DNA of 64,000 nt. Source: an uncultured Clostridia bacterium (GTDB taxonomy: Bacteria > Bacillota > Clostridia > Oscillospirales > Ruminococcaceae). A program made the translations under genes and the position numbers. The notes below the pieces were generated by a model. The model was not told the origin of the DNA. It made no database searches and saw nothing but the letters and a program-made list of their open reading frames with translations. The stretch covers positions 1-64,000 of the forward strand of contig CANQNF010000011.1 in assembly GCA_947625125.1 (NCBI GenBank), read 5' to 3'. Shown piece after piece: positions 39,301 through 60,950 of this stretch (the first letter of the stretch is position 1; the number at the start of each line of letters is the position of its first letter).

Positions 39301-39384
39301 GGCGCAGCCCCGCTCCCACTGCCGTGGGAGCAAGCTCCGGCTTCGCCGGAGCTTCGTCGGCCTGCGGCCGACGGGGGCTGCGCC
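39301..39384. repeat. GC-rich cloverleaf element A
   Basis: GGCGCAGCCCC (39301-39311) pairs with GGGGCTGCGCC (39374-39384). Enclosed without any unpaired base are three hairpins: 39312-39331 (8-bp stem GCTCCCAC), 39332-39354 (10-bp stem AAGCTCCGGC, loop TTC) and 39355-39373 (8-bp stem CGTCGGCC, loop TGC). It is intergenic, between the divergent dap promoter and the dtd promoter. Related elements lie at 52.3, 57.2 and 60.9 kb. Confidence 0.9.
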
Positions 39385-39445
39385 CCCGGCAACGCGCAAG
39401 GGTCCGGAACCCCGAGCGCGCCACGCCCGTTTACCCGCGCACGTC

Positions 39446-39474
39446 TTGATTTTCCCCGCAAAAAGATGTATAAT
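39446..39474 (+). promoter_or_regulatory. Promoter of dtd
   Basis: TTGATT (39446-39451), 17-bp spacer, TATAAT (39469-39474), 26 bp upstream of the start codon. Confidence 0.75.
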
Positions 39475-39499
39475 ACCGAAAAAGGCAAAGGAGCAGAAT

Positions 39500-39937
39500 A
39501 TGAAAGCTGTTATACAACGCATGCTGAGGGCGGCGGTCTCGGTGGACGGCGAGGTCGTCGGGAAGATTTCGAGGGGGTATATGATACTTTTGGGAGTAGA
39601 GGCCGGGGACAGCGTCTCCAAGGGTTCGGCGCTCGCCGCAAAAATTTCAAAGCTAAGGATCTTTGCAGATGAAAACGGCAAGACAAACCTGTCGATAACC
39701 GACGTCGGAGGAGAAATTCTGGCGATCTCGCAGTTTACGTTATGCGCAGACTGCTCGCACGGAAACAGGCCGAGCTTTATAGGCGCAGCCCCGCCGGACG
39801 AGGCGAACATGCTCTACGAGAGCTTTTGCGGGAGCCTTGAGGGCCTCGGGCTTCCGGTTCAAAAGGGGATTTTCGGGGCGGATATGAAGATAGATATGCT
39901 CTGCGACGGGCCTTTTACCGTCACACTGAGCATATAG
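39500..39937 (+). CDS. dtd: D-aminoacyl-tRNA deacylase
   Basis: A 145-residue homodimeric enzyme that hydrolyses D-amino acids mischarged onto tRNA. MKAVIQRMLRAAVSVDGEVV, GYMILLGVEAGD, KISKLRIFADENGKTNLSI, the catalytic ISQFTLCADCSHGNRPSF (SQFTL) and GIFGADMKIDMLCDGPFTV (variant of the G-P motif region) are all in place. The start was set at the ATG preceded by AAAGGAG; a longer in-frame reading enters cloverleaf A and is an artefact. Confidence 0.95.
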   Translation: MKAVIQRMLRAAVSVDGEVVGKISRGYMILLGVEAGDSVSKGSALAAKISKLRIFADENGKTNLSITDVGGEILAISQFTLCADCSHGNRPSFIGAAPPDEANMLYESFCGSLEGLGLPVQKGIFGADMKIDMLCDGPFTVTLSI

Positions 39938-39947
39938 GAGGTATTTT

Positions 39948-40286
39948 ATGAACATTCAGATCTACTCGCGGTCGAAGTGCTTCGACTCGAAAAAGGCGGA
40001 GCGCTGGTTCAAGGAACGCCGAATTAAGGTGCAGATAATCGACATAGATTCAAAGGGCCTCAGCCCCCGGGAACTCGACAGCGTCATCTCGGCGGTAGGG
40101 CTGGAGAATCTTATCGACCCGAAGTCGAAGTCGAAAGACGCTATGCTCATGCAGTATCTCGGCAGCAGCGAGCAAAAGCGTGAGAAGCTGCTTGAGGACC
40201 CGAAGCTGCTGAGATCGCCCATTGTTAGAAACGGCCGCCAAGCAACGGTGGGCTACTGCCCGGAAATATGGGAGGGGTGGGGGTGA
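39948..40286 (+). CDS. ArsC/Spx-like thioredoxin-fold protein
   Basis: A 112-residue protein of the arsenate reductase/Spx/YffB fold: MNIQIYSRSKCFDSKKAERW with a single N-terminal Cys where Spx has CxxC, ENLIDPKSKSKDAM, and DPKLLRSPIVRNGRQATVGY with the cis-Pro Arg segment. It is too short and lacks the RPB-binding features needed to call Spx. Co-transcribed with dtd (10-bp gap, GGAGG before the ATG). A role in thiol redox chemistry is inferred from the fold only. Confidence 0.82.
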   Translation: MNIQIYSRSKCFDSKKAERWFKERRIKVQIIDIDSKGLSPRELDSVISAVGLENLIDPKSKSKDAMLMQYLGSSEQKREKLLEDPKLLRSPIVRNGRQATVGYCPEIWEGWG

Positions 40287-40340
40287 GGGGGTACTATTGC
40301 CTGACCATCTCCCTCACCGTATATAAAGTTTATATTCCGC

Positions 40341-40370
40341 AAAAAAGCCGTCAGCTCACGCCGACGGCTT
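40341..40370. terminator. Bidirectional terminator between the ArsC-like gene and gdhA
   Basis: AAAAAAGCCGTC and GACGGCTT form a hairpin with A-run on one side and T-containing tail on the other, between two convergent genes. Confidence 0.8.
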
Positions 40371-40391
40371 CTATATATTCAACCTGCTTGA

Positions 40392-41952
<1,561 letters not shown>

Positions 41953-42041
41953 GGGGATAATTCGCCGCATACATAAAAAACGGCACAGCCGCAGTACGCA
42001 GCCATGCCGAAATTTCATAATTTCATGAATACTTCTTTTTC

Positions 42042-43646
42042 TCAATCATTTACCCAGCTGTCGCCGCCGCAGTTCGGGCAATCCACCTTGCCTCGGCCGT
42101 GGCATTTTGTGCATGTGACCCATCTTTTATGCTGAGTCTTCTGGTTGCCGGTGTAATTCGGCGTGGAGGTGTACTCATAGTGTCCGCCGTCGCCGTCGCA
42201 GCGCGAACATTCGATCTCACCGGCAAAACACTTCGGGCATTTGTACCTGCCCGTGCCGGAACTGCCCGAGCTCGATGAGCTTGACGATGACGAGGACGAC
42301 GAGGATGACGAAGAGGAGTGCTCGCTGTCCTGATACCCGGGCTCGTAGTAGCTGTTGTAGCTGCTTTGAGTGCTTACGTCGCCGTTGTCGACAAATTCAA
42401 TATCGTCGGAGTAGAGTATAGTCAGGCTTATGATATGGTCCTTCGGCCAGTAATGAACATAAAGAATAATGTCGAGATCGTCATATTTGACGTCGTCTAT
42501 CTTTCCCGTTACATGGGTTATGCTGCCGCCCATGTATTTAAGGCCGTAGGTTTCGGAATATTCGGGGGAAAGATACGGGTGATAATCATAGACCTCCTGG
42601 CTGTAGGGGTAGCTGTCGAGAACAAGCTTAACGTATTCGTTGACGCCGTCGATATCATCGTCGTCTCTGAATGAGAAGTGTGTTCCGCCATTGTCGGCAA
42701 TCGTGTATCCCGCCTGATCATGGAAGAAAGCAACGGGGTCGGGAAGCGTGGCCTTTGAGGATTTTGAGGAGGCTGCGGACGAAGTGCCCGAACTCTTTTC
42801 GGGTATGTCAAGGCGCTCGGAATCGGAGGTTATGCTTCCCGCCTTGACCCTGAAATAATATGTGCCGGGATTGAGGCCGGTCAGCTTGTCGGAGGTTTTG
42901 GCGGTAGTGATGAGGTCTATCCATGACCCGCCGGTGAGCTTGAACTGGACGGTATAAGACGTGACCCCGCTGATTTTGTTCCAGCTCAGTGTGACGGTGC
43001 CGTCGCTGCCGGTTTCAATGTCGAGATCCAATTCCTCGTCGTTATCCTCGGGAACGTCGACGCTGACGGTGTTTGAGACGCTTCCCTTGTCGGGGACTAT
43101 CTTAAACGAGTATTTTTTGCCCGCTTTGAGGCCGGACACCGTGACGGCTGTGGACTTGGTCGTTTTCAGGGTTTTGAACGACGATAAGCCGGTGTACTTG
43201 TACTGAATGGTGTATTCGGCCGCGTTTTTGACCTTTGTCCAGCTGAGCTTTATCTTGCCGTCGGTGAGCTTGCCGGTGAGAGTGGGCGCCGTCGAATTCG
43301 TGCCGGTCTTGACGGTTATCTTGTACTCGTCGGGGTCGTCGATATTTGAGTTTGAGATTTTAAAATCATAGCTCATATTCTCGACAAGTCCCGAAATGTT
43401 CACGGCCCTCTTTTGCGTGGTGCCCGCGGATTTATATGTCGAATTCGAGGACCTCTTATAACTGATTTTGTATGTCGCGTCGGAGACCCCGGGCACCGCG
43501 TCCCATTTCAGGCTCACGACCGTTCCGTTGACTTCGGCGGAAATATGCTTAGTGCCCGAAGCCGAGACCGGCGCCGCAAGCGATGTCAGAACAATCGAAA
43601 TAACTGTGACGGCTAAAAGAAAACGTTTTAATGCTGCTTTTTTCAT
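42042..43646 (-). CDS. Secreted FnIII protein with C-terminal DnaJ-like zinc ribbon
   Basis: A 534-residue secreted protein. Residues 1-29 form a signal peptide (FLLAVTVISIVLTSLAAPVSA). Three fibronectin type III domains follow (opening near ISAEVNGTVVSLKWDAVPGV, TLTGKLTDGKIKLSWTKVKN and LDIETGSDGTVTLSWNKISG), then a unique domain (~290-415, YDYHPYLSPEYSETYGLKYM) and a run of about 17 Ser. The C-terminus has DnaJ-type cysteine pairs CPKC, CSRCDGDG, CTKCHGRG and CPNCGG. Such zinc modules are unusual outside the cell. The function is unknown. It is a single gene with its own promoter. Confidence 0.75.
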   Translation of the reverse strand: MKKAALKRFLLAVTVISIVLTSLAAPVSASGTKHISAEVNGTVVSLKWDAVPGVSDATYKISYKRSSNSTYKSAGTTQKRAVNISGLVENMSYDFKISNSNIDDPDEYKITVKTGTNSTAPTLTGKLTDGKIKLSWTKVKNAAEYTIQYKYTGLSSFKTLKTTKSTAVTVSGLKAGKKYSFKIVPDKGSVSNTVSVDVPEDNDEELDLDIETGSDGTVTLSWNKISGVTSYTVQFKLTGGSWIDLITTAKTSDKLTGLNPGTYYFRVKAGSITSDSERLDIPEKSSGTSSAASSKSSKATLPDPVAFFHDQAGYTIADNGGTHFSFRDDDDIDGVNEYVKLVLDSYPYSQEVYDYHPYLSPEYSETYGLKYMGGSITHVTGKIDDVKYDDLDIILYVHYWPKDHIISLTILYSDDIEFVDNGDVSTQSSYNSYYEPGYQDSEHSSSSSSSSSSSSSSSSSGSSGTGRYKCPKCFAGEIECSRCDGDGGHYEYTSTPNYTGNQKTQHKRWVTCTKCHGRGKVDCPNCGGDSWVND

Positions 43647-43723
43647 AATATCTTCCTTTCCGAGAAATTCTGCCGCCTAAAACCCGCGACGGCCTTGCGC
43701 TCCAAGATAATGGTAGTAATACT

Positions 43724-43751
43724 ATTATAGCATAAAAGGGGGAAATGTCAA
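43724..43751 (-). promoter_or_regulatory. Promoter of the FnIII/zinc-ribbon gene
   Basis: Minus strand TTGACA (43751-43746), 16-bp spacer, TATAAT (43729-43724). From here to the mraZ promoter (~240 bp) no gene or clear signal is seen. Confidence 0.8.
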
Positions 43752-43997
43752 TATGGAGGGGGATATTGCCGAAACTGCCACATAAAGAAAACAGAAGTCG
43801 GACGTCAGAACTTTAAGGCGTCACCTATGTCGACGGTTTTGAATTCTAAAAAACGAGTGAGGGATGAACGCTCCTGAAATTATTATGATGGATTCAGAGG
43901 CTTGGATGCCATCCCCTCCCACCCCATTTGTGCACTATTCACAAAATTCGTGTTAAAACTTCTCACAATTTCCTGTGCTCCGATTTTGGAAAAGGCC

Positions 43998-44026
43998 TTG
44001 AAATTTTTCCCGTCAGGTGTTATAAT
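43998..44026 (+). promoter_or_regulatory. Promoter of the division cluster
   Basis: TTGAAA (43998-44003), 17-bp spacer, TATAAT (44021-44026), giving a predicted start near 44033. Confidence 0.82.
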
Positions 44027-44037
44027 TGCGGTATCAA

Positions 44038-44062
44038 GTGGACAAAAGTGCAATTTTGTGGG
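44038..44062 (+). promoter_or_regulatory. MraZ boxes
   Basis: Three direct repeats GTGGA, GTGCA and GTGGG begin at 44038, 44048 and 44058, exactly 10 bp apart, as in known MraZ operators. They lie just downstream of the predicted transcription start, so MraZ binding would block elongation or initiation of its own operon. Confidence 0.78.
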
Positions 44063-44123
44063 AAGATTACCCTGAAAAGTAACCTGCCCACACTAAAACC
44101 GTCTCTGAAAGGAGGGATCTGCC

Positions 44124-44564
44124 GTGGCCGGAAACGTTGAAATGATGAGCGGCGAGCTGCCGTATACCATCGACCAAAAGGGGAGAATGAGCTTTCCTCA
44201 GCGCTTCCGCGATATTTTAGGCGACAGATTCATGCTCACAAGAGGCGCCGACCGCCGACTCGTGGCCTATTCCGAGAGCGACTGGCAGGAGCTGATGTTG
44301 AAAATATCGGCCATGCACGAGGGCAGACAAAAGGAAATTTTAAAGCAGATATACATCAAGGGCGCCATCGCCGTCGAATGCGACAAAACGGGGAGGATAC
44401 TCGTTCCCCAGGCGCTGAGGGAATACGCCGGGCTTTTAAAGGACGTCTACGTCGTCGGCGCGATGGATACCGCCGAGATTTGGGACAAGGCATGCTATGA
44501 GGCGTTCACTCAGTCTATTGCCCCCGAGGAGCTTTACAGCGCTCTCGGAGCGTTGGGAGTGTAA
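44124..44564 (+). CDS. mraZ: Transcriptional regulator MraZ
   Basis: A 146-residue protein with two AbrB-like swapped-hairpin domains (YTIDQKGRMSFPQRFRDIL and VECDKTGRILVPQALREYAG), each with the DxKGR/DKTGR DNA-contacting motif. The GTG start follows AAAGGAGG by 9 bases. First gene of the division and cell-wall cluster, predicted to repress it through the boxes upstream. Confidence 0.95.
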   Translation: MAGNVEMMSGELPYTIDQKGRMSFPQRFRDILGDRFMLTRGADRRLVAYSESDWQELMLKISAMHEGRQKEILKQIYIKGAIAVECDKTGRILVPQALREYAGLLKDVYVVGAMDTAEIWDKACYEAFTQSIAPEELYSALGALGV

Positions 44565-44568
44565 ATAA

Positions 44569-45489
44569 GTGGAATTTGTGCATCTTCCCGTGATGCTCGA
44601 CGAATGCATCGCGGGGCTGAATATAGACCCTGCCGGAATCTATGTCGACGGGACAGCCGGCGGCGGGGGTCATTCTCTCGCCATAGCGGGCAGGCTCACC
44701 ACCGGGCTTTTGGTGTCCGTCGACCGCGACCCCGACGCCATAAAGGCGGCAGGCGAGAGGCTTTACGGCCTTAACGTAAAGCTCGTAAAATCGGACTACA
44801 GAGACGTCGACCGTGTATTAAAGGACCTCGGCATTGACGGCATAAACGGCATGCTTTTAGACCTCGGGGTATCGAGCTACCAGCTCGACAACCGTGAGAG
44901 GGGATTTTCCTATCACGACGACGCGCCCCTCGATATGAGGATGTCAAAAGAGGGGATGTCCGCCAAAGACGTCGTGAACGGTTATTCCTACGAGGAACTC
45001 AGCCGTATCATCTTCGAGTACGGCGAAGAAAAATTTGCAAGATCAATAGCCTCCAATATAGTAAAGAAGCGTGAATCAAAGCCCATCGAATCGACTGCGG
45101 AGCTGGCCGAGATAATCAAAGAGTCGGTTCCGCAAAAGGTTCGGCGGGAGCACAACCCCTGCCGAAAGACTTTCCAGGCGATAAGAATTGAGGTCAACAG
45201 CGAGCTCGACGCGCTTTCGGAAGCCCTGGACAAGGGCTTTGAGGCATTAAAGCCGGGCGGGAGATTTGCCGTGATAACGTTTCATTCCCTTGAGGACAGG
45301 CTCGTGAAGCAGCGTTTTGCGGGATTCTGTCAGGGCTGCACCTGCCCTCCCGAGTTTCCGGTGTGCGTGTGCGGCAAAAAGCCGAGAGGGAAGCTCATAA
45401 CGAAAAAGCCGATAGAGCCGAGCGACGAGGAAACGCGCATTAACCCGCGTTCGCGCTCAGCAAAACTGCGAATAATAGAAAAGCTGTAA
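44569..45489 (+). CDS. rsmH: 16S rRNA m4C1402 methyltransferase
   Basis: A 306-residue SAM-dependent methyltransferase (also MraW): VHLPVMLDECIAGLNID, GIYVDGTAGGGGHSLAIAGR (motif I), GMLLDLGVSSYQLDNRERGF, FQAIRIEVNSELD and FAVITFHSLEDRLVK. GTG start directly after mraZ (4-bp gap), with GGGAG inside the mraZ end. Confidence 0.96.
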   Translation: MEFVHLPVMLDECIAGLNIDPAGIYVDGTAGGGGHSLAIAGRLTTGLLVSVDRDPDAIKAAGERLYGLNVKLVKSDYRDVDRVLKDLGIDGINGMLLDLGVSSYQLDNRERGFSYHDDAPLDMRMSKEGMSAKDVVNGYSYEELSRIIFEYGEEKFARSIASNIVKKRESKPIESTAELAEIIKESVPQKVRREHNPCRKTFQAIRIEVNSELDALSEALDKGFEALKPGGRFAVITFHSLEDRLVKQRFAGFCQGCTCPPEFPVCVCGKKPRGKLITKKPIEPSDEETRINPRSRSAKLRIIEKL

Positions 45490-45522
45490 ATATATTTCAT
45501 CCGAGAGAAAGGAGTGACCCTG

Positions 45523-46005
45523 TTGGCACAGCGCGGAAATTTGGCATACGACCTGTCGGTCTACGAGCCTAAAAAGAAGCAGCAGCCCGAGGCCCAGGAA
45601 GCAAGGATAAGCCATAAGAAAAACCCGACCCCGGTCCGCCGGCAGAGTCCCCTGAAGCTTTTCACAAAGGCGGCGTTCATCTTCGGGGTCATGTGCGCGG
45701 TCCTCTACGGAAAGGTCGAGTCCAACTCTCTCTTTAACGAAATTCACAGCTTGGAGCAGGAACTTAAGGACCTTCAGGGCGAGAATATAACGCTTGCGGC
45801 GGAGTATGAGTCGAGGACGTCCTTAAAGAACGTCGAGGACTATGCCGAAAACGTCCTGGGGCTCAAAAAGCTGGACAAGTCTCAGATAGAGTATGTAGAG
45901 CTTCCGGGCGAGAGGGTCATCGAGATCGTCGAGACCGAGCAGAAGAACATCTTCATCATCATAAGGAACAAGATAAACGAGCTCCGGGAATATTTGGGAG
46001 CTTAG
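45523..46005 (+). CDS. ftsL: FtsL-like septal protein
   Basis: A 160-residue bitopic protein: a ~50-residue basic cytoplasmic region, one membrane helix (LFTKAAFIFGVMCAVLYG), then an extracytoplasmic coiled coil (LEQELKDLQGENITLAAEYE) with a leucine-zipper pattern. The TTG at 45523 is preferred because GAAAGGAG stands 8 bases upstream. Position between rsmH and the PBP, and the topology, identify it as FtsL; sequence similarity is weak as usual for this family. Confidence 0.8.
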   Translation: MAQRGNLAYDLSVYEPKKKQQPEAQEARISHKKNPTPVRRQSPLKLFTKAAFIFGVMCAVLYGKVESNSLFNEIHSLEQELKDLQGENITLAAEYESRTSLKNVEDYAENVLGLKKLDKSQIEYVELPGERVIEIVETEQKNIFIIIRNKINELREYLGA

Positions 46006-46106
46006 TCAAATACAATATAGCATATGAAAAAGTTGGGCTCTAAGGTTCACGAGGCGGTCCAATTTTTTCCGTATGTGGGTGCTGAAAAATTCGGGAGGCG
46101 TGAGTT

Positions 46107-48368
46107 TTGGAAAAATCTACGCAGAAAATGCGGTTCCGGCTTTTATGTGCGGTATTTCTTGTCATGATACTCGTCGCGGGGTATGTTTCTTTCGTCATGT
46201 ACCGCGTCGCCGTGACCGAGAGCGACAAGTACCAGGCTCTTGCCAACTCTCAGCAGTTCAAGACGATGACGATAGCCGCGAACCGCGGTTCAATATATGA
46301 TTCAACGGGCCAGGTCCTCGCCCAGAGCGTCACGGTATACACCGTCTTTGTCGACCCTAAGACATTTCGGGAGAGAGACAAAGCGCGTGAAAACGATATA
46401 GTGACCGTACTCACCAATCTTTTGGACGTGGACGGCGACGAGATACGCGAGAAGTTATATAAGGACAACAGCTACCAGGTCATCAAAAAGGACGTGGATA
46501 AGGTCACGGTCGAGACGATGATGGAGCAGCTAAACCCAACCTATCCCGACGACTACGAGGGCGAGGAGAAAAAGGCGATAACCTCGGTGGGAGCGGCTCC
46601 GACGGCTAAAAGATACTATCCCCACAACGACCTCGCGGCCTCAGTCATCGGGCATCTTCACTACGACGGCTACGGGATTTTGGGGCTTGAAAGCTACTAC
46701 GACGACTATCTCACCGGCGTGGACGGAAAAATAATCACCGCCGTCGACGCGCACAACCGTGAGATACAGTATAAATATAAGCAGTCCTACGACGCACAGG
46801 ACGGCGACTCTATCTATACAAATCTCGACTCTACGATACAGTATTACACCGAAAAGGCGCTGAAGCAGGCCGTCGACGACAACAATGCAAAGAACAGAGG
46901 CTGCGCCATAGTCATGGAGTGCAAGACGGGAAAGATTTTAGCCATGGCGACCGAAAACGGCTATGACTTAAACGACCCCGCCGCGATATTCGATGAAAAA
47001 ACAGAGAAGAATTTAGAGCAAATTTTACAGGAGCAGGGCGAAGAAGCTTACGAGGCCGCCCGTTCGGACGCATGGAACAAGCAGTGGCGAAATAAGGCCA
47101 TAAGCGAGCTATATTATCCCGGCTCGGTCTTTAAGGTCGTGACGGGTTCTGCGGCGCTTGAGGAGCAGGCTATATCTTTAGAGGATAAATACTACTGCTC
47201 GGGCTCGGTCGTAGTCGCCAAGGGCGTGGCCCCGATACACTGCTGGACCACCCACGGCGGACACGGAGAACAGAACTTTGTCCAGGCCATGACCAACTCC
47301 TGCAACCCGGCATTCATAGCCATCGGTCAGGCCCTCGGCGCCAAAGCTTTTACAGACTACTTCAAGGCGTTCGGTCTCACCGAAAAGACCGGCATAGACC
47401 TGCCCGCCGAGAGCGACTCGATTTATGTTCCCTATTCGAGGATGAGCCTTGTCGACCTTTCGGTTTCGGCATTCGGCCAGGCGAACAAGATAACCCCGCT
47501 TCAGATGATAACCGCATATGCCGCGGTCGTCAACGGCGGATATCTCGTGACCCCGTACATCGTGAACAAGATAGTCGATTCCGACGGTAACATCGTCAAG
47601 GAATTCGAGCCGACCATCAAGCGCCAGGTCATCTCGGAGGAGACCTCCGCCACGATGAGAGACGTATTATATAAGGTCGTCACCGAAAATTCCGGCTCCA
47701 ACGTCTACATAGAGGGCTACAATATCGGCGGAAAGTCGGGCACGTCCCAGAAGCTCGACGAACCGGGAGGCGCCGAAAAGTACGTTTCATCCTACTGCGC
47801 GTTCTACCCCGCCGACGACCCCGAGATAATAATGCTCGCGATGGTCGACGAACCTACCAACGGCAAATACTACGGCTCTGCGGTCGCGGCCCCGGTCGTC
47901 GCCCAGACCCTCACCGAGGTCCTGCCGTATCTGGGATATTATGCGGAGTATTCCGAAGAGGATATTTCAAATCTTGACGTCACCGTTCCCGGCGTTTCGG
48001 GGGCAAATATAGACTCGGCAAAGGCGACCCTTGAGGAGCTCGGACTTGAGACCGATGTCATAGGCTCGGGCGAGACGGTCATAAGACAGGTCCCCGCCGA
48101 ATCGAGCGCAATGCCCAAGGGATGCAGCGTGATACTCTACACCGAGGAAAACACCGAGCCTGAATATGTCACGGTGCCGGATATCTCGGGCATGAGCCTT
48201 GAGAGCGCCGAAAAAGCTCTCTCGCGAAAGGGCCTGAATCTTAAGCCCTTGGGAGGAGCCGCAAAGAAGTCGGGAGCGAGATGCTCGGGGGCTTCTATTT
48301 CGGGCCAGCAGGTCGAAGTCGGGACGATAGTCGAGGCATACTTCCTCGTGAACGACGAGACGGGATAA
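46107..48368 (+). CDS. Penicillin-binding protein 2 / SpoVD-FtsI type with two PASTA domains
   Basis: A 753-residue class B PBP: N-terminal membrane helix (LLCAVFLVMILVAGYVSFVM), dimerisation domain (NRGSIYDSTGQVLAQSVTVY), transpeptidase with YYPGSVFKVVTG (SxxK), TNSCNPAF (SxN) and GGKSGTSQ (KTG-type). Two PASTA domains follow (about residues 625-690 and 692-750: VTVPGVSGANIDSAKATLEE and VTVPDISGMSLESAEKALSR). The TTG start follows GGGAGG. Two PASTA domains leave PBP2x/FtsI-like and SpoVD-like both possible; it is the septal transpeptidase partner of FtsW. Confidence 0.9.
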   Translation: MEKSTQKMRFRLLCAVFLVMILVAGYVSFVMYRVAVTESDKYQALANSQQFKTMTIAANRGSIYDSTGQVLAQSVTVYTVFVDPKTFRERDKARENDIVTVLTNLLDVDGDEIREKLYKDNSYQVIKKDVDKVTVETMMEQLNPTYPDDYEGEEKKAITSVGAAPTAKRYYPHNDLAASVIGHLHYDGYGILGLESYYDDYLTGVDGKIITAVDAHNREIQYKYKQSYDAQDGDSIYTNLDSTIQYYTEKALKQAVDDNNAKNRGCAIVMECKTGKILAMATENGYDLNDPAAIFDEKTEKNLEQILQEQGEEAYEAARSDAWNKQWRNKAISELYYPGSVFKVVTGSAALEEQAISLEDKYYCSGSVVVAKGVAPIHCWTTHGGHGEQNFVQAMTNSCNPAFIAIGQALGAKAFTDYFKAFGLTEKTGIDLPAESDSIYVPYSRMSLVDLSVSAFGQANKITPLQMITAYAAVVNGGYLVTPYIVNKIVDSDGNIVKEFEPTIKRQVISEETSATMRDVLYKVVTENSGSNVYIEGYNIGGKSGTSQKLDEPGGAEKYVSSYCAFYPADDPEIIMLAMVDEPTNGKYYGSAVAAPVVAQTLTEVLPYLGYYAEYSEEDISNLDVTVPGVSGANIDSAKATLEELGLETDVIGSGETVIRQVPAESSAMPKGCSVILYTEENTEPEYVTVPDISGMSLESAEKALSRKGLNLKPLGGAAKKSGARCSGASISGQQVEVGTIVEAYFLVNDETG

Positions 48369-48458
48369 AACCGACAGGAGAACTTTGATATACTTAACGG
48401 CGAAGCTGCGGTCGGGCCGACAGGTTCGGCCGCCGCATTGCCGACCAAGGGGGAAGCC

Positions 48459-49922: not shown

Positions 49923-49928
49923 AAGCAT

Positions 49929-50945: not shown

Positions 50946-50962
50946 CAAGGGAGGGGAGCTTT

Positions 50963-52246: not shown

Positions 52247-52261
52247 GCTTGCGAGCTTCCG

Positions 52262-52394
52262 TTCTCGGCGCCCGCACCCCGGCTGAGGCGAAGCCCCGTC
52301 AGCTTCGCTGACTCGCTCCGTCCCTCCGGGACGGAGCCGCCGCCATACGGCGGCGGGGGGCTTCGCCCCGCAGGAGGCCGCGGGGCGCCGAGAA
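52262..52394. repeat. GC-rich cloverleaf element B, between ftsW and murG
   Basis: Inner stem GGCGAAGCCCC (52287-52297) with GGGGCTTCGCC (52357-52367) encloses three hairpins: 52298-52312 (GTCAGC, loop TTC), 52315-52337 (GCTCCGTCCC, loop TCC) and 52338-52355 (CGCCGCC). A further 12-bp outer stem pairs TTCTCGGCGCCC (52262-52273) with GGGCGCCGAGAA (52383-52394). It occupies nearly the whole gap between two co-directional operon genes, so it should be transcribed. Confidence 0.9.
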
Positions 52395-52437
52395 TATACA
52401 TAAAAACCTGCCGGTTAAGGCGGAACGGGGGACAACT

Positions 52438-53577: not shown

Positions 53578-53691
53578 CACCTTAAAATTCCGACATCTGT
53601 TTTCTGACTTCCGATTTCTGCCGCAGGCGGCACCCCGTTTCCCTCTTTTGCATATTATGCAGAGTACAGACTCAAAAAGAGGGGAACTAAG

Positions 53692-54951
53692 GTGACAGAC
53701 ACAAGGTTATACATAGAGGGCGGAAGAAAAATTTCCGGCTCGCTTTCGGTCCACGGTGCAAAGAACAGCGTTCTGCCGGTTTTGGCGGCCACGCTTTTAT
53801 CCCCGTCGGTATCAAGGATAAAAAACTGTCCGGCTCTTTCGGACGTATATTCATCAACAAGAATCCTCGGCTCATTAGGCTGCAAATGCCGTTCCGACAA
53901 AAGCGCGATAGAAGTCGACGCGACCGCTTTGAGCGACTGCGAGATAAGCGAGAGCTTAATGCGTGAAATGCGCTCCTCGATCGTTTTTTTGGGAGCCATT
54001 CTCGGCAGACTTCGGCGGTGCAGGCTTTCTTTCCCGGGAGGCTGCGAGCTCGGTCCGAGGCCGATAGACATACATATCTCGGGCTTACGGAGCCTTGGCG
54101 CCAAAATCATCGAGGACCACGGAGTCCTTGACTGCACTCTGCCCGGAACGGTCACTGGAGCGGTCATAAATCTGCCCCTGCCGTCTGTCGGAGCGACGGA
54201 GAATATCATGCTCGCCGCCACGATAGGCTCGGGAGTCACGCTCATCCACAATGCCGCAAGAGAGCCGGAAATAAAGGACTTGGCGGGATTTATAAACGCC
54301 ATGGGCGGAAAAATTTCGGGGGCGGGCTCGTCCACAGTGACCGTCGAGGGAGTGGAGAAACTTCACGGCGCCGAATTTTCGGTCATGCCCGACAGAATAG
54401 TCGCCGCGACATATATGGGCGCGGCCGCCATTACCGGCGGAGAGCTCATGCTTACCGGCGTAAGACCGTCGGATATGATCTCGACTATTTCACAGTTTGA
54501 GCAGATGGGCTGCGGGGTCTACCCCTATTCCGACAGAATATTCATCAGCGCGAAAAAGCCGCTGAATCCTATAAAAACGGTAAGAACGGCGCCCTATCCC
54601 GGGTTTCCGACCGACTGCCAGCCGATACTCATGGCAGTGCTGACAAGGGCGAGAGGCACGTCCGTCATCGTTGAAAATATCTTTGAAAACCGTTTTAGGG
54701 CGGCGCCCGAGCTTAGGCGTCTCGGCGCTGACATAAAAGCCGAGGGCAGAGTGGCGGTCGTCGAGGGAGTCCCGAGGCTTTCCGGCTCTCCGGTCGTTGC
54801 CACCGATTTAAGGGCAGGAGCGGCGCTCGTTCTGGCGGGGCTTGCGGCCGAGGGCACGACGACGGTGTCCAATATCAATTATATCGACAGGGGCTATGAA
54901 CAGTTAGAGGCGGCGCTTAAATCCGTCGGAGCAAGGATAAAACGAGTGTGA
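53692..54951 (+). CDS. murA: UDP-GlcNAc 1-carboxyvinyltransferase
   Basis: A 419-residue enolpyruvyl transferase, first committed step of murein synthesis and the fosfomycin target. HGAKNSVLPVLAATLL, SFPGGCELGPRPIDIHISGL (with the PEP-reacting Cys), VMPDRIVAATYMGAAAITGG, PGFPTDCQPILMAVLTRARG and ENIFENRF are conserved. GTG start after AGAGGGGAAC. Lies 114 bp after murG within the cluster. Confidence 0.95.
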   Translation: MTDTRLYIEGGRKISGSLSVHGAKNSVLPVLAATLLSPSVSRIKNCPALSDVYSSTRILGSLGCKCRSDKSAIEVDATALSDCEISESLMREMRSSIVFLGAILGRLRRCRLSFPGGCELGPRPIDIHISGLRSLGAKIIEDHGVLDCTLPGTVTGAVINLPLPSVGATENIMLAATIGSGVTLIHNAAREPEIKDLAGFINAMGGKISGAGSSTVTVEGVEKLHGAEFSVMPDRIVAATYMGAAAITGGELMLTGVRPSDMISTISQFEQMGCGVYPYSDRIFISAKKPLNPIKTVRTAPYPGFPTDCQPILMAVLTRARGTSVIVENIFENRFRAAPELRRLGADIKAEGRVAVVEGVPRLSGSPVVATDLRAGAALVLAGLAAEGTTTVSNINYIDRGYEQLEAALKSVGARIKRV

Positions 54952-54984
54952 GCCGCGCACGCAATTTCCCGAAGGGAGCAGAAA

Positions 54985-55884
54985 ATGAAGGACGTAGTAA
55001 AAACACCCAACCCGGGCGGGAACCCTACCCGCCCGAGAGCCCGCAGACGGCGCAATCTCTCGCTTTACTATTTAATGATATTCGCCGTATGCGTGATAAT
55101 ATTCTTGATTTTGGCAAGAACCGTGCTCTTTAACATCAGCGAGTACGTCGTCGAGGGAAATTCAATCTATACCGCCGACGCGATACTTGCCGCAGGCGGT
55201 CTCCACGAGGGCAGGAACATGTACGGCATAAACCTCGAAAAGACCGAAAAGAAAATCAAAGATAAGCTTGTTTATATCGAGGATATAAAGCTTCGCAGAA
55301 AGCTCCCCGACAAGTTTTTGGTGACAGTCACCGAAGCGAGGGCGTTTGCGTGCTGCGAATATGAGGGGAACAGGTATGCTGTTATAACCAAGTCGGGACG
55401 GTATCTTGAGACCGAGCAGTTAGGCCCGAGGGCGGGACTTATTCAGATAAAGGGCATGGAGCTCACGGGCGTGGCGCTTGCGGCGGATTTTGTATCGCAG
55501 GACGAGACGAAGCGGGATATAATTCTCGATTTGATGGAAGCCATCTCGGAGATATGCGACGGAAAGATAACCGAAATAGACATCACCGACCGAACGAACA
55601 TCACGATGAAATATGAGGACAGAATAGATATCGACTTCGGGTCGTCTTTGGATTATGAATATAAGCTTCGCTACATCTCGACCATCATAGAGGACAGCCT
55701 CGAGCCCGACGAGGAGGGGACTATAGTCTATCACAGCTCGGCTGCCGGCGCTTCGTTCATCAAAAAAGAGGACATGGAGCTTGACGAGGCCGAAAGAGAG
55801 GCCCGGAAGAATGCGGAGGCCGAGGACGGGAATGCCGAAAACGAAACCGACGGCGGGGACTCCGAGGGAGAGAATGAGGAATGA
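54985..55884 (+). CDS. ftsQ: Cell-division protein FtsQ/DivIB
   Basis: A 299-residue bitopic protein: basic cytoplasmic N-terminus, membrane helix (YYLMIFAVCVIIFLILARTV), POTRA domain (FNISEYVVEGNSIYTADAIL), beta domain and an acidic, Glu-rich C-terminal tail (from about residue 255). GGGAGCAGAAA precedes the ATG. Topology and cluster position support FtsQ/DivIB, which forms the FtsQLB complex with the FtsL encoded upstream. Confidence 0.85.
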   Translation: MKDVVKTPNPGGNPTRPRARRRRNLSLYYLMIFAVCVIIFLILARTVLFNISEYVVEGNSIYTADAILAAGGLHEGRNMYGINLEKTEKKIKDKLVYIEDIKLRRKLPDKFLVTVTEARAFACCEYEGNRYAVITKSGRYLETEQLGPRAGLIQIKGMELTGVALAADFVSQDETKRDIILDLMEAISEICDGKITEIDITDRTNITMKYEDRIDIDFGSSLDYEYKLRYISTIIEDSLEPDEEGTIVYHSSAAGASFIKKEDMELDEAEREARKNAEAEDGNAENETDGGDSEGENEE

Positions 55885-55918
55885 GATAACTTTCCTGAAA
55901 AATTATCTCAAAAAACTA

Positions 55919-55947
55919 TTGCCAAACGCGAAGTTTTGTGGTATGAT
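55919..55947 (+). promoter_or_regulatory. Promoter of ftsZ
   Basis: TTGCCA (55919-55924), 17-bp spacer, TATGAT (55942-55947), in the 180-bp gap between ftsQ and ftsZ, giving ftsZ its own promoter. Confidence 0.68.
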
Positions 55948-56064
55948 AATATCATGAATACAAAATAGGGACAATAAAATCACATTTTTGCATAAATTTT
56001 TACATAAATTTAATAAATAAACAGTGCTGCGGCATGATATATAAGATATTGGAGGATGTTGAAC

Positions 56065-57141
56065 ATGGGATTCATTATGGAAAACGAAGGCATTGACTTA
56101 GCGAAGATCAAAGTTGTCGGAGTCGGCGGCGGCGGCGGAAACGCCCTCAACTGCATAGTCTCGACCGGCATCCAGAATGTCGAATATATCTCGGTCAATA
56201 CCGACGCTCAGGCTCTCAAAAATTCCAAGGCCACCGTCAAGATCCAGATCGGCCAGAAGCTGACCCACGGCCTCGGCGCAGGCGGAAGACCCGAGGTGGG
56301 CGAGGGAGCCGCTCAGGAGTCTAAGGACGAAATAGCCGACGCTCTTAAAGGCGCCGATATGATCTTCATCACCGCCGGCATGGGCGGAGGCACCGGAACA
56401 GGCGCCGCTCCCGTCGTTGCGGAAATTGCCCGCGATATGGGCATTCTGACCGTTGCGGTCGTCACCAAGCCTTTTATGTTCGAGGGCGCGAAGAAGCTTG
56501 CCCAGGCCGAAAGAGGTATAGACGCGCTTCTTAAAAACGTCGACTCCTTGGTAGTCATCCCGAACCAGAAGCTTCTTACAGGAAAAGAAAATCTCACGAT
56601 GCGCCAGTCGTTCGCGCTCGCCGACGATATACTCAAGACCGCCGTATTATCGGTAACTCAGCTTATCCTCTGCCACGGCTGGATCAACGTCGACTTTGCG
56701 GACGTTCAGTCCATCATGAAAGACTCGGGCTATGCGCACATGGCCATCGGCCACGGCGAGGGCAAGGACAAAGTCACCGACGCCGTACAGCAGGTCATCT
56801 CCAGCCCGCTGCTTGAGACCTCCATCAAGGGCGCTAAGAGGCTCTTGCTCAACATCACGATGTCCGAGGATATCGGCACCGGCGACGTGACCGAGCTCAC
56901 CGACGCCATCACCAAGGCTGCCGCGCCCGACGTCAACCTCATCTTCGGCGCAGACTTCAACCCCGACCTCAGCGATTCCATCGATATCATCGTCATCGCG
57001 GCCGATTTCGACGCGTATCAGAGCGAGCCCGAGGAGGCCGAGGAGGAGACCCCCGAGGACAGCGAGAGCACCGACGAGAACGCACAGCGTCCGTCCGGCG
57101 ACCCGTTCTACGACGGGCTGTGGAGCTTCTTGAACAAATAA
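56065..57141 (+). CDS. ftsZ: Cell-division GTPase FtsZ
   Basis: A 358-residue tubulin homologue that forms the Z ring. IKVVGVGGGGGNALNCIV, GMGGGTGTGAAPVVAEIA (tubulin signature), and the T7-loop region INVDFADVQSIMKDSGYAHM are all intact. GGAGG stands 9 bases before the ATG at 56065. The C-terminus has a short acidic linker and ends DPFYDGLWSFLNK, an unusual form of the terminal peptide that normally reads near D-I-P-x-F-L-R and contacts FtsA, SepF and ZapD-like proteins. No ftsA is encoded nearby, as in many Clostridia using SepF. Confidence 0.96.
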   Translation: MGFIMENEGIDLAKIKVVGVGGGGGNALNCIVSTGIQNVEYISVNTDAQALKNSKATVKIQIGQKLTHGLGAGGRPEVGEGAAQESKDEIADALKGADMIFITAGMGGGTGTGAAPVVAEIARDMGILTVAVVTKPFMFEGAKKLAQAERGIDALLKNVDSLVVIPNQKLLTGKENLTMRQSFALADDILKTAVLSVTQLILCHGWINVDFADVQSIMKDSGYAHMAIGHGEGKDKVTDAVQQVISSPLLETSIKGAKRLLLNITMSEDIGTGDVTELTDAITKAAAPDVNLIFGADFNPDLSDSIDIIVIAADFDAYQSEPEEAEEETPEDSESTDENAQRPSGDPFYDGLWSFLNK

Positions 57142-57155
57142 TTTGAAACACTGCC

Positions 57156-57193
57156 AAAGGCGGCGGCTGAGCATATCGGCTGCCGCTTTTTTT
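57156..57193 (+). terminator. Terminator after ftsZ
   Basis: GGCGGCGGC pairs with GCTGCCGC and is followed by seven T residues, 15 bp after the ftsZ stop. Confidence 0.82.
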
Positions 57194-57203
57194 GATCGAT
57201 GCA

Positions 57204-57341
57204 AAGCGGCCGGAAACCGGGGGAGTGCGTGGGCGGAGCCCCGGCTCGCGTACGCGAGCCCGACGGCGAAGCCGTCGGGGCCCGGCCTGCGGCCGGGCGG
57301 GGCTCCGCCGGAGCAGAAGGAGCGGTCCGGCCGCGAGGGGG
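57204..57341 (+). repeat. GC-rich cloverleaf element C (138-bp unit)
   Basis: The core has GGCGGAGCCCC (57232-57242) paired with GGGGCTCCGCC (57299-57309), enclosing hairpins 57243-57260 (GGCTCGCG, self-complementary), 57261-57277 (CGACGGC, loop GAA) and 57280-57298 (GCCCGGCC, loop TGC). Flanks extend the unit to 138 bp, nearly identical to the inverted copy at 60813-60950. It lies between the ftsZ terminator and the glmM promoter. Confidence 0.9.
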
Positions 57342-57417
57342 CGGAGCAGGGGGCATATCCTACATCCGTCCGGTTGTTTTCCACCCTCTGTTTGGCACTT
57401 TTTTACATTGACTTTTT

Positions 57418-57446
57418 ACCGAATATATAATATAATATCTTTGTAT
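57418..57446 (+). promoter_or_regulatory. Promoter of glmM-glmS
   Basis: TTGACT (57418-57423), 17-bp spacer, TATAAT (57441-57446), about 48 bp before the glmM start. Confidence 0.78.
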
Positions 57447-57493
57447 ACCGTCGCTTCGGCGGTGAAAAAATATTGCAAAGGAAATGAGATTTT

Positions 57494-58879
57494 ATGGGCA
57501 AATACTTCGGCACCGACGGGTTCAGGGGCGAGGCCAACAAGGGCCTTACCGCCGAGCACGCTTTCAAGGTCGGCAGGTTCTTGGGCTGGTATTTCGGCGA
57601 GAAAAAGAGAGCGTCCGGCTCCGACGAACCCGCAAGGATAGTCATAGGAAAAGACACCCGCCGTTCAAGCTATATGTTCGAGTATGCTTTGGTCGGAGGT
57701 CTGACGGCCTCCGGGGCCGACGCGTATCTTCTGCACGTCACCACCACCCCATCCGTCGCCTACATAACCAAGGTCGACGACTTCGACTGCGGAATAATGA
57801 TCTCGGCGAGCCATAACCCCTACTACGACAACGGAATCAAACTCATAAACTGCTGCGGCGAAAAGATGGACGAGGACACCATCTCCCTTATTGAGGACTA
57901 TCTTGACGGCAGCGTCACCGTTTTCGGCAGGACATTCTCCGAGGCTCCCTATGCTCAGAGAGACAAAATCGGCCGCACAGTCGACTACGTCGCCGGAAGA
58001 AACCGCTATATAGGCTATCTTATCAGCCTCGGCATTTATTCATTCAGGGGCATTAAAGTCGGCCTCGACTGCGCAAACGGTTCGAGTTGGAACATTGCCA
58101 AGGCCGTTTTTGACGCATTGGGCGCCAAGACCTACGTCATCGGCGCCGAACCCGACGGCACGAATATCAACAGCGGCGTCGGCTCTACCCATATCGAAAA
58201 TTTACAGAAATTTGTAGTTGAAAAGGGCCTCGACGTCGGTTTTGCATATGACGGAGACGCGGACAGGTGCCTCTGCGTGGACGAAAACGGCAACGTCGTC
58301 ACCGGCGACCACATCCTTTACATCTACGGAAAATACATGAAAGAGCGCGGAAAGCTCTTAACTAACACCGTCGTCACCACCGTTATGTCGAACTTCGGCC
58401 TCTATAAAGCGTTCGACGAGCTCGGCATCGGCTATGCCAAGACCGCCGTCGGCGACAAATATGTATATGAATATATGCAGAAAAACGGCTGCCGACTGGG
58501 AGGCGAGCAGTCGGGCCACATAATCTTCATGAAATACGCCTCCACCGGCGACGGAATTCTGACGAGCCTTAAGATGATGGAGGCGATGATATCCTCCAAA
58601 AAGAAGATGAGCGAGCTCTGCGAGGGCCTGAGGATTTATCCCCAACTGCTTGAAAACGTCCGGGTCAAGGACAAAGCGGCAGCCCAAAACGACCCCGACG
58701 TCAAGGCGGCAGTCGAAAAGGCGGCGTTCGACCTCGGCTCATCCGGCAGAATTTTGGTCAGGGAGAGCGGCACCGAGCCCCTTATTCGGGTCATGGCCGA
58801 AGCCGAGACCGAGGAGCTCTGCCGAAAATATGTCGAAGATATTGTTAAAGTGATTAAAGAAAAAGGCCATGCGGTCTGA
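57494..58879 (+). CDS. glmM: Phosphoglucosamine mutase
   Basis: A 461-residue alpha-D-phosphohexomutase turning GlcN-6-P into GlcN-1-P for UDP-GlcNAc. YFGTDGFRGEAN, the phosphoserine loop IMISASHNPYYDNG, the Mg site FAYDGDADRCLCV, the sugar-binding loop GGEQSGHIIF, and RESGTEPLIRVM are all present. AAAGGAAATGAG is upstream of the ATG. It is followed 30 bp later by glmS, the preceding step of the same pathway. Confidence 0.95.
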   Translation: MGKYFGTDGFRGEANKGLTAEHAFKVGRFLGWYFGEKKRASGSDEPARIVIGKDTRRSSYMFEYALVGGLTASGADAYLLHVTTTPSVAYITKVDDFDCGIMISASHNPYYDNGIKLINCCGEKMDEDTISLIEDYLDGSVTVFGRTFSEAPYAQRDKIGRTVDYVAGRNRYIGYLISLGIYSFRGIKVGLDCANGSSWNIAKAVFDALGAKTYVIGAEPDGTNINSGVGSTHIENLQKFVVEKGLDVGFAYDGDADRCLCVDENGNVVTGDHILYIYGKYMKERGKLLTNTVVTTVMSNFGLYKAFDELGIGYAKTAVGDKYVYEYMQKNGCRLGGEQSGHIIFMKYASTGDGILTSLKMMEAMISSKKKMSELCEGLRIYPQLLENVRVKDKAAAQNDPDVKAAVEKAAFDLGSSGRILVRESGTEPLIRVMAEAETEELCRKYVEDIVKVIKEKGHAV

Positions 58880-58909
58880 TGAAATAACCGATAAAGGAGA
58901 GCGATACAA

Positions 58910-60748
58910 ATGTGCGGAATTGTAGGATTCACCGGCAAAAGGCAGGCTGCCCCGGTCCTTCTGGACGGGCTTGCAAAGCTTGAATACCGAGGATACGACT
59001 CGGCGGGAATAGCCGTAAGAGACGGCGCGAGCGAGCCCGAGATCGTCAAAGCCAAGGGCAAGCTTAAAATTCTTCGCGAGATGACCAACGAGGGCGCAGC
59101 CGTAAAAGGCGACTGCGGGATAGGGCATACAAGATGGGCGACTCACGGCGAGCCGTCTGTGACTAACGCCCACCCCCTAAGCTCCGACGATGAAAACGTC
59201 GTCGGCGTTCACAACGGCATCATCGAAAACTACCAGGAGCTAAAGGAAAAGCTCATAAAAAACGGCTACAGCTTCAAGTCCCAGACCGACACCGAGGTCG
59301 CGGTAAAGCTTGTCGACTACTACTACAAAAAGTACAACGGCGGCCCGCAGGACGCTCTTGCAAGGGCTATGACGAGAATTCGCGGCTCCTATGCTTTGGT
59401 CCTCATGTTCAAGGACTGCCCAGGTGAAATCTATGCCATAAGAAAAGACAGCCCTATGATTATAGGCGTTTCCGACGGCGAGACTTTCTTGGCGTCCGAC
59501 GTTCCCGCGATACTTAAGTACACAAGAAACGTCTACTATGTCGGCGACCTCGAAATCGCAAAGCTGACAAAGGGCGAGGTAAAGTTTTATAACATCGACC
59601 GCGAGGAAATAGAAAAAGAGCTGACCGAAATAAAGTGGAACGCCGAGGCTGCCGAAAAAGCGGGCTATGAGCATTTCATGCTGAAAGAAATACACGAGCA
59701 GCCCAAAGCCGTCAAGGATACGCTTTCCTCCGTCGTCAAGGACGGCAGGATAGACCTTTCCGACGTCGGCCTCAGCGACGATGATATAAAAGATATTGAG
59801 CAGATTTATATAGTCGCCTGCGGTTCGGCGTATCATGTCGGCATGGCGGTGCAGTATGTGATAGAGGAGCTTACATCGGTGCAGGTCCGGGTCGAGCTTG
59901 CCTCGGAATTCAGATACCGCGAATTAAAACTCAGAAAGAACAGCCTCGCCATTATAATCAGCCAGTCGGGAGAGACCGCCGACAGCTTGGCGGCGCTCAA
60001 ATATGCCAAGAAAAACGGCGTAAAGACCCTGGGCATAGTCAACGTCGTGGGCTCGTCGATAGCCCGTGAGGCCGACAGCGTTTTCTATACCCTTGCAGGC
60101 CCCGAGATATCCGTCGCAACCACTAAAGCCTATTCCGCACAGCTTATAGCGGGCTATCTTTTAGCGGTGCAGTTCGCCAAAGTCAGGGGCGAGATCGATG
60201 AAAAAGAATATTCAAGACTTATAGAGGAGCTCGAAACCATCCCCCATAAAATCGAAAAGATTTTGGAGGACAAGGAGAGGATACAGTGGTTCGCGGCGAA
60301 ATTTGCCTCGGTAAAGGACGCTTTCTTTATCGGCAGGGGCATAGACTATGCGGTCGGGCTCGAGGGGTCTTTGAAGATGAAAGAGATAAGCTACATCCAC
60401 TCGGAAGCCTATGCGGCGGGCGAGTTGAAGCACGGTCCGATAAGCCTTATCGAGAACGGAACGCTCGTCATCGGCGTCGTCACTCAGCAGAGGCTCTACG
60501 AGAAGATGGTCTCGAACATGGTCGAGGTCAAGAGCCGTGGAGCATACCTGATGGGGTTGACCTGCTACGGAAACTACGGCATGGAGGACCTTGCGGACTT
60601 CACGGTCTACATTCCCCAGACCGACCATCTGTTCCTTGCGAGCCTTGCTGTGATACCGCTTCAGCTCATGGGGTATTACGTCAGCTGCGCCAAGGGCCTC
60701 GACGTCGACAAGCCGAGAAACCTCGCCAAGAGCGTAACGGTGGAATAA
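58910..60748 (+). CDS. glmS: Glutamine-fructose-6-phosphate aminotransferase
   Basis: A 612-residue enzyme: N-terminal Ntn glutaminase with the catalytic Cys at residue 2 (MCGIVGFTGKRQ, TRWATHGEPS, NAHPLSS), and two SIS sugar-isomerase domains (IVACGSAYHVGMAVQYVIEE, SQSGETADSLAALKYAK, GRGIDYAVGLEGSLKMKEIS, GELKHGPISLIENG) ending with DVDKPRNLAKSVTVE. It makes GlcN-6-P. Only 30 bp separate it from glmM, leaving no room for a glmS ribozyme. Confidence 0.96.
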   Translation: MCGIVGFTGKRQAAPVLLDGLAKLEYRGYDSAGIAVRDGASEPEIVKAKGKLKILREMTNEGAAVKGDCGIGHTRWATHGEPSVTNAHPLSSDDENVVGVHNGIIENYQELKEKLIKNGYSFKSQTDTEVAVKLVDYYYKKYNGGPQDALARAMTRIRGSYALVLMFKDCPGEIYAIRKDSPMIIGVSDGETFLASDVPAILKYTRNVYYVGDLEIAKLTKGEVKFYNIDREEIEKELTEIKWNAEAAEKAGYEHFMLKEIHEQPKAVKDTLSSVVKDGRIDLSDVGLSDDDIKDIEQIYIVACGSAYHVGMAVQYVIEELTSVQVRVELASEFRYRELKLRKNSLAIIISQSGETADSLAALKYAKKNGVKTLGIVNVVGSSIAREADSVFYTLAGPEISVATTKAYSAQLIAGYLLAVQFAKVRGEIDEKEYSRLIEELETIPHKIEKILEDKERIQWFAAKFASVKDAFFIGRGIDYAVGLEGSLKMKEISYIHSEAYAAGELKHGPISLIENGTLVIGVVTQQRLYEKMVSNMVEVKSRGAYLMGLTCYGNYGMEDLADFTVYIPQTDHLFLASLAVIPLQLMGYYVSCAKGLDVDKPRNLAKSVTVE

Positions 60749-60753
60749 AAAAG

Positions 60754-60790
60754 AAAGCCCCCGGGAGAACATCCCGGGGGTGGCTTTATT
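60754..60790 (+). terminator. Terminator after glmS
   Basis: GCCCCCGGGA and TCCCGGGGGTGGC pair around GAACA, followed by TTTATTT. Confidence 0.85.
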
Positions 60791-60812
60791 TGGGCGAGCG
60801 CAGACGACGTCC

Positions 60813-60950
60813 CCCCCTCGCGGCCGGACCGCGCCGTCTGCTCCGGCGGAGCCCCGCCCGGCCGCAGGCCGGGCCCCGACGGCGAAGCCGTCGGGCTCGC
60901 GTACGCGAGCCGGGGCTCCGCCCACGCACTCCCCCGGTTTCCGGCCGCTT
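60813..60950 (-). repeat. GC-rich cloverleaf element D (inverted copy of C)
   Basis: Read on the minus strand it matches element C over 138 bp with a handful of differences. The core stem is 60845-60855 with 60912-60922. The central hairpin keeps the plus-strand reading CGACGGC-GAA-GCCGTCG in both copies, so within the inverted unit that hairpin loop has been flipped (GAA versus TTC). It follows the glmS terminator. Confidence 0.9.

Follow-up and report, generated by a model that had tools for sequence, protein, structure and literature searches.

Our analysis of a 64,000-nucleotide stretch of DNA from an uncultured Clostridia bacterium (contig CANQNF010000011.1; hereafter the window) shows that four cloverleaf elements, here called A, B, C and D, belong to a single family of dispersed DNA elements, short and non-coding, which occurs in one group of a genus of uncultured gut Clostridia. 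In the core of these elements an outer stem encloses exactly three hairpins, forming a four-way junction that leaves few bases unpaired, and the family is a real, group-wide, shape-conserved dispersed repeat. We consider it probable, with considerable reserve, that it is a dispersed DNA element akin to repetitive extragenic palindromes (REPs) and miniature inverted-repeat transposable elements (MITEs), recognized by its folded shape together with its outer stem, and that its pairing is kept by selection combined with template switching.

Four elements and the architecture of the family

A structural descriptor that uses no sequence information (an outer stem of at least seven perfect pairs; two to five hairpins of at least five perfect pairs; loops of 3–5; gaps of at most 3) found four cloverleafs in the window and no others. 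All four fold into three hairpins held by an outer stem (z-scores of −6.2 to −8.4; none of 200 shuffles folds as well), so that reading, folding and the descriptor agree with the places and the plan first proposed for them from the bare sequence. The cores and their accessory parts are as follows.

39301..39384, no strand assigned: core of A, stem GGCGCAGCCCC/GGGGCTGCGCC and three hairpins
52287..52367, no strand assigned: core of B, stem GGCGAAGCCCC/GGGGCTTCGCC and three hairpins
52262..52273, no strand assigned: extra outer helix of B, left side TTCTCGGCGCCC, pairing with 52383-52394 (read from the sequence)
52383..52394, no strand assigned: extra outer helix of B, right side GGGCGCCGAGAA (read from the sequence)
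57232..57309, plus strand: core of C, GGCGGAGCCCC stem and three hairpins
57206..57213, no strand assigned: longer unit of C, left end GCGGCCGG, pairing with 57327-57334
57327..57334, no strand assigned: longer unit of C, right end CCGGCCGC
60845..60922, minus strand: core of D, inverted copy of C whose middle tip is flipped
60820..60827, no strand assigned: longer unit of D, one end GCGGCCGG, pairing with 60941-60948
60941..60948, no strand assigned: longer unit of D, other end CCGGCCGC

The outer stem has the form GGCGNAGCCCC/GGGGCTNCGCC, and its variable pair N:N' covaries as had been claimed: A has C:G, B has A:T, and C and D both have G:C. Each strand of this stem can also form a small hairpin by itself, GGC-GNA-GCC facing GGC-TNC-GCC; the covarying base is therefore the middle of a triloop. 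The sequence-only reading treated the four elements as differing copies, which holds for A, B and C; D repeats C in reverse complement, at 96% identity over 138/146 query bases with the flanks included, and the tip of its middle hairpin is flipped (GAA/TTC). C and D are thus not independent, and the window holds three independent designs. The longer unit with GCGGCCGG/CCGGCCGC ends is common to C, D and other copies in the source genome.

The three-armed plan holds well beyond the window. Over 790,353 bases the descriptor returned 66 distinct cloverleafs, all of them three-armed, and none in one dinucleotide shuffle per sequence; 63 of the 66 carry the outer-stem motif GGCNNAGCC. Thirty-nine of these come from 217 kb chosen for containing elements; the remaining 573 kb, which include some stretches of genome G411 already known to contain elements, hold 27 cloverleafs, 26 with the motif (G and L numbers are our labels for genomes and loci). 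In 60 kb of G416 the descriptor found no cloverleaf. Over 1.06 Mb, mostly chosen by motif, it found 90 three-armed structures and one five-armed, and none with two or four arms. Among 248 motif-bearing candidates in all, 173 of the 174 from identified carriers (including the ruminal genome RUG14213, described below) are three-armed, and the 74 from other records have three arms in 41 cases, two in nine and one in 24. In 148 of 213 elements the junction leaves 0–2 bases unpaired, one further element being unparsed. Chance inverted repeats are ruled out by the fold z-scores, by the contrast of 66 cloverleafs with none in shuffled sequence, and by the pattern counts given below.

Triloops make up 519 of 642 tips, and 450 of these 519 are cGNAg or cTNCg, compared with 8 of 64 triplets if tips were random; because the copies are related, this excess yields no probability. 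DNA triloops of the cGNAg kind are stable; no paper on such triloops was found in the literature search made. No single internal-loop motif is valid in every genome.

Two other hairpin structures were seen in the same material. At 1450-1574 of L029, in the source genome, a different outer stem of 15 bp surrounds five hairpins, as if both strands of the stem had folded on themselves. By glmM/glmS in L348 (G415), L354 (G408) and L352 (G335) lies another intergenic hairpin repeat, of the kind GGGTC(A/G)AGGGGC(A/G)GAGCCCC(T/G)(C/T)GTCGC.

Copies across genomes and changes between orthologues

The source genome (3.17 Mb in 101 contigs, 98.5% complete) contains about 50 copies: the pattern GNAGCCCCN{40,70}GGGGCTNC occurs at 51 places and its reversed control at none; a stricter pattern, GGCGNAGCCCCN{40,70}GGGGCTNCGCC, occurs at 38; and a loose one, GGCNNAGCCCN{44,74}GGGCTNNGCC, at 52, with one control match. 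In an even draw of 394 genomes of the order, source included, the strict pattern is present in four, all from the source genus. Within the genus, 15 of 31 genomes (again counting the source) carry the loose pattern and 16 do not, with controls of 0 or 1, so that the further copies anticipated by the sequence-only reading exist both in this genome and in its relatives. Copies per genome number 211, 151, 74, 52 (the source), 21, 20, 20, 19, 16, 13, 13, 11, 10, 4 and 1. The 14 carriers with at least four copies form one group, whose murG protein is 81–85% identical to that of the source (a partial match in G416); in the other 17 genus genomes, including the one-copy G397, the identity is 60–65%.

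Base composition differs between carriers. The arms of 34 source-genome elements are 81% GC, compared with 49.5% for the window. The ruminal metagenome-assembled genome (MAG) RUG14213, whose kinship to the genus is not stated, has 13 copies; four of its loci are 36% GC and the arms of their four elements 39% GC. In G411, neighbouring elements stand in tandem, 26–44 bp apart.

A spread over many phyla was considered and rejected. Of at least 107 matching stretches in assembled genomes, 80 were listed; those that were folded from outside the Clostridia (Streptomyces, Proteobacteria, Bacteroidales, Planctomycetes and others) are single stems or loose folds. One weak three-arm match, L174, looks like chance. 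In 60 IMG/VR viral stretches with the stem pattern the descriptor finds no cloverleaf; five of the 60 fold as three loose hairpins. Two genomes of unrelated bacteria, Centralia_MAG_189 (Proteobacteria; L073, L078, L083, L088, L143) and a termite-gut Dysgonamonadaceae MAG (L094, L101, L122), hold multi-copy repeats with a GGCGNAGCCCC-like foot that form one long stem and not three arms.

Comparison of orthologous sites shows how the elements change. In the close carriers G414 and G417, which are sister species, 12 elements (of 18 in 17 G414 loci) stand at orthologous sites; together with seven comparisons among other species they give 19 comparisons, some loci being used twice. In the outer stem, 189 of 190 pairs are unchanged and one is gapped, a figure that overstates the conservation, since most positions of this stem were set by the motif used in the search. 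In the arms, 446 pairs are unchanged and 20 are changed on both sides and still Watson-Crick, which are the compensatory changes that had been looked for in relatives; 16 are broken, three changed to G.U, one changed on one side to Watson-Crick, and 18 are gapped. Counting aligned columns only, the 200-base flanks show 64–95% identity across the 12 G414/G417 comparisons. Many of the G414/G417 copies, and the sets S1-S4, are shared.

Three further kinds of change were found. In L311/L335, L312/L331 and L323/L333, several arm pairs are rewritten and the rest kept. Tips flip between GAA and TTC in L062 versus L079 and between two tandem G415 copies. In L315/L328 the core is inverted in place between straight flanks: the forward and reversed scores are 42.5 and 62 for the core, 153 and 10 for the left flank, and 65 and −9 for the right flank. 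This is the only orthologous pair of 12 that aligns better reversed; the other 11 score higher forward. L319/L340, considered as a second in-place inversion, was set aside because its right flanks fail to align. Tandem duplications at a spacing of about 265–285 bp were also seen to contain cloverleafs, some with tips flipped between copies:

L006 (source genome), 1261-1603
L245, 991-1351 and 3964-4329
L200, 2748-3096
L348 (G415), 810-1178

The elements of the window stand in varied settings. A lies in a divergent gap, flanked on the minus strand by a dapA-like gene with a lysine riboswitch and on the plus strand by a D-Tyr-tRNA deacylase gene; B in the ftsW-murG gap, 40 bp past the ftsW stop; C between the ftsZ gene and a glmM-like gene, past a terminator-like hairpin judged by eye; and D 3' of a glmS-like gene and its terminator-like site at 60757-60781. 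In 12 other carriers (without G416), the ftsW-murG gap contains cloverleafs in G415 alone, two in tandem with other arms; the remaining 11 have none by the descriptor, and other small repeats or hairpins occur there in G409 and G273. Inspection by eye of 12 carriers found an element on the upstream side of glmM in G415 alone (four loci stop short of ftsZ) and none in the stretch examined on the downstream side of glmS (one locus is short). As the carriers examined, apart from G415, show no element at these places, B, C and D are lineage-specific. No clean pair of empty and filled sites with exact ends was found.

Three other features of this DNA may be recorded here. Between D and the next frame, at 61055-61087, there is a perfect 16-bp inverted repeat with a one-base spacer, followed by a T-rich tail. 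A plus-strand open frame of 3514 amino acids at 7538-18082, with 11 FctA (Spy0128-like isopeptide) stretches and DUF7601/DUF5979 matches, resembles a giant surface-protein gene. Short AT-rich tandem motifs of the TTAGTAGTTAGT/GTCAGAAGTCAGA kind occur at 25819-25903 of the window and in L208 (G409, upstream of murG), L245 and L006, some of them near elements in relatives.

Folded DNA, RNA and the means of spread

The reading that we favour can be put as a series of steps: the element would act as DNA and be recognized when folded, either in a single strand or as an extruded cruciform; the recognizing protein would require the outer stem and the shape of the junction; the element would spread as a non-autonomous REP/MITE-like unit through a putative enzyme acting in trans; its arms would stay paired through selection on the fold and hairpin template switching during replication; and its copies would persist mostly directly downstream of genes. 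A more specific version, which we put forward tentatively and hold to be less likely than not, is that of shape-addressed mobile DNA, in which a protein of this clade would read the folded four-way junction through the conserved outer stem, and what is inherited would be a geometry and not a sequence. If the junction is read through its outer stem, the arms would be nearly free of sequence requirements, so that rewriting, flips and turning in place could occur without loss of recognition.

Several observations weigh against this picture. Template switching alone, without selection, might be the source of the pairing, and the conservation of the outer stem is inflated by the way in which copies were found. 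Covariation is modest in a plain alignment of 20 source-genome copies (93.5% of cells paired; arm 3 poorly aligned): it contains four two-sided pairs, a number matched by 55 of 500 shuffles; its covariation score is 0.036 versus 0.013 (0/500 shuffles). MAFFT spoils the diverged arms, with helix 4 only 75% paired even among these 20 close copies, and patterns and the structural descriptor were therefore used in place of a covariance model. Neither a mover nor an autonomous partner came to light, PF01797 being the one transposase family searched, nor did a target duplication. The last two points concern genes: 49 of 102 cores in co-directional gaps lie 1–59 bp past a stop codon, with two of the 102 nearer than 15 bp; and the sense strands of near-stop elements carry 60 TNC and 34 GNA tips, compared with 37 and 48 in other elements.

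This placement and this tip bias are what speak for a transcribed structured RNA, an intercistronic or 3'-end mRNA structure with its fold under selection, together with the covariation between orthologues. For 62 of 80 elements the stop is closer than the following start codon (p = 8e-7, with orthologues and related copies counted apart), and the habit is strong in low-copy genomes (8/9 in G417, 6/8 in G414). Near-stop elements are also common in G335 (3/3), RUG14213 (3/3) and G273 (4/6), and rare in G411 (2/22), the source genome (4/16) and G415 (1/5). A selected RNA fold would be expected to show a strand, and neither G.U pairs nor orientation show one, although the near-stop tip bias points the other way. 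G.U pairs in co-directional gaps number 34 on the sense and 33 on the antisense strand (125 elements, 4605 pairs); once identical copies are taken out, the counts are 12 and 11 for 43 near-stop elements and 5 and 9 for the 37 that are not; the polarity of elements relative to gene direction is the same in 10 and opposite in 14 in G411, and the same in 11 and opposite in 14 when assigned by a flank tag. This lack of strand preference in G.U pairs and orientation argues against structured RNA, as does the presence of 32 elements, A among them, in divergent gaps (111 are co-directional and 26 convergent; total gap lengths 24.1, 53.8 and 17.7 kb, respectively; a further 28 lie inside called open reading frames, some of them surely false, such as that at A, and 17 at locus edges). 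A T-run separates the stop from the element in 38 of 103 co-directional elements, and a gathering-threshold Rfam search of the window and 13 loci matched no element, only riboswitches, T-boxes and tRNAs elsewhere. Intrinsic terminators were rejected: a T-run follows within 80 bp downstream in 27 of the 103 only, and D (and, by eye, C) follows a terminator-like site. Structured RNA, one of the options of the sequence-only reading, is thus disfavoured, and we regard it as unlikely; an effect on mRNA at the near-stop copies is possible, since about half of the elements in co-directional gaps lie within 60 bp of a stop.

We also doubt, somewhat more strongly, that the copies are functionless fossil repeats, with template switching from arm to arm as the sole reason that they stay paired. 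Flipped tips, paired changes of several bases and inversion in place are traces that the available text of two studies attributes to template switching (PMC8794818, PMC8604942), and C, D and other source-genome copies are decaying in places. However, template switching preserves complementarity only, whereas the sequence of the outer stem is kept (in part through ascertainment) between flanks that have diverged; nor would a fossil account explain exactly three arms, preferred tips, or expansion to 151 and 211 copies.

The sequence-only reading had also raised movement by a TnpA-REP (RAYT) transposase. In favour of REP/BIME-type repeats mobilized by RAYT are the dispersed, palindromic and intergenic nature of the family, the tandem pairs of G411, a one-sided flank tag, GCACCAAGGCGCAG, in 51 of 209 elements versus 6 of 209 shuffled (an optimistic figure, as the tag was picked by eye from the same data), and the distribution of Y1_Tnp (PF01797), which matches in 8 of 31 genomes: seven of the 14 carriers, several by fragments only, and one of the 17 others. 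The other seven carriers have no PF01797 match (G416 is only 76% complete). One Y1 gene of the source genome was tested: it is an IS200 transposase, scoring 148.8 bits against a cut-off of 55, and falls short with the REP-associated model (39.8, cut-off 80). Thirteen loci of the 19 Y1 matches were examined, and the descriptor finds no cloverleaf in any of them; the distance between a Y1 fragment and an element on source contig C79 is about 1.8 kb. The REP tags are not enriched: GTAG stands within 12 bases of the foot in 7 of 209 versus 12 shuffled, and CGTC at the foot in 9 of 209 versus 15 in shuffled flanks. The missing Y1 genes and unenriched tags argue against a REP/RAYT family, which we consider very improbable. 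Among the three options first proposed, a mobile unit, a protein site and an RNA, a folded DNA site is the best; movement by RAYT is unsupported.

Known systems and significance

The sequence-only reading knew of no named family with this design; neither Rfam nor the literature consulted supplied a match. In its open-access part we found no description of the three-arm design, which does not prove its absence; in the accessible text of a REP survey (PMC12306157), the terms cloverleaf, Firmicutes, Clostridi and multiple stem are absent, and Bacillota appears once, in a genome table. As far as the available parts of four papers describe them (PMC3116915, PMC3733652, PMC2817692, PMC8266576), REP/BIME/REPIN repeats with RAYT resemble the cloverleafs in being dispersed palindromic intergenic repeats, present in tens to hundreds of copies, often as adjacent pairs, with lineage-specific expansion; these repeats are single hairpins of 20–40 bp with a GTAG or CGTC tag, whereas the cloverleafs are three hairpins within a fourth stem, with a core of about 75–95 bp. 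The cloverleafs differ further in that their arm sequence is free, in that no RAYT was found, one Y1 gene having been tested, and in that all 66 descriptor cloverleafs are three-armed where a REP would be a short, single, imperfect palindrome.

The hairpin elements of sponge and yeast mitochondria consist of one or two hairpins each. They differ from the cloverleafs in belonging to an organelle and in having no fixed three-arm junction. The sponge repetitive hairpin-forming elements and yeast GC clusters resemble them, in the text available to us, as small hairpin-forming mobile intergenic repeats without a known enzyme (PMC2800124, PMC4478555). The multi-base paired changes and loop inversions that template switching between inverted repeats is described as leaving are both found here, including inversion of a core; template switching is a mutational process and not a repeat family, and sets neither the number of arms nor the sequence of the outer stem. 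With MITEs, as the accessible part of one paper describes them (PMC2229807), the family shares short, non-coding, dispersed repeats. Inverted GCGGCCGG ends are seen in the source C/D unit and different flanks in other genomes; the cloverleafs are set apart by the lack of a demonstrated partner transposase (within the single family searched) or target duplication. The behaviour of the family is closest to that of REP repeats and mitochondrial hairpin elements, and it is not a tested member of either.

If our reading is correct, one genus would provide hundreds of natural variants of one DNA junction, and orthologous pairs would display the rewriting of hairpins with pairing kept, such that the shares of template switching and selection in hairpin covariation would become measurable. 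The reading would also point to a putative junction-reading protein, and it would counsel caution: strong intergenic covariation would not, by itself, be proof of RNA.

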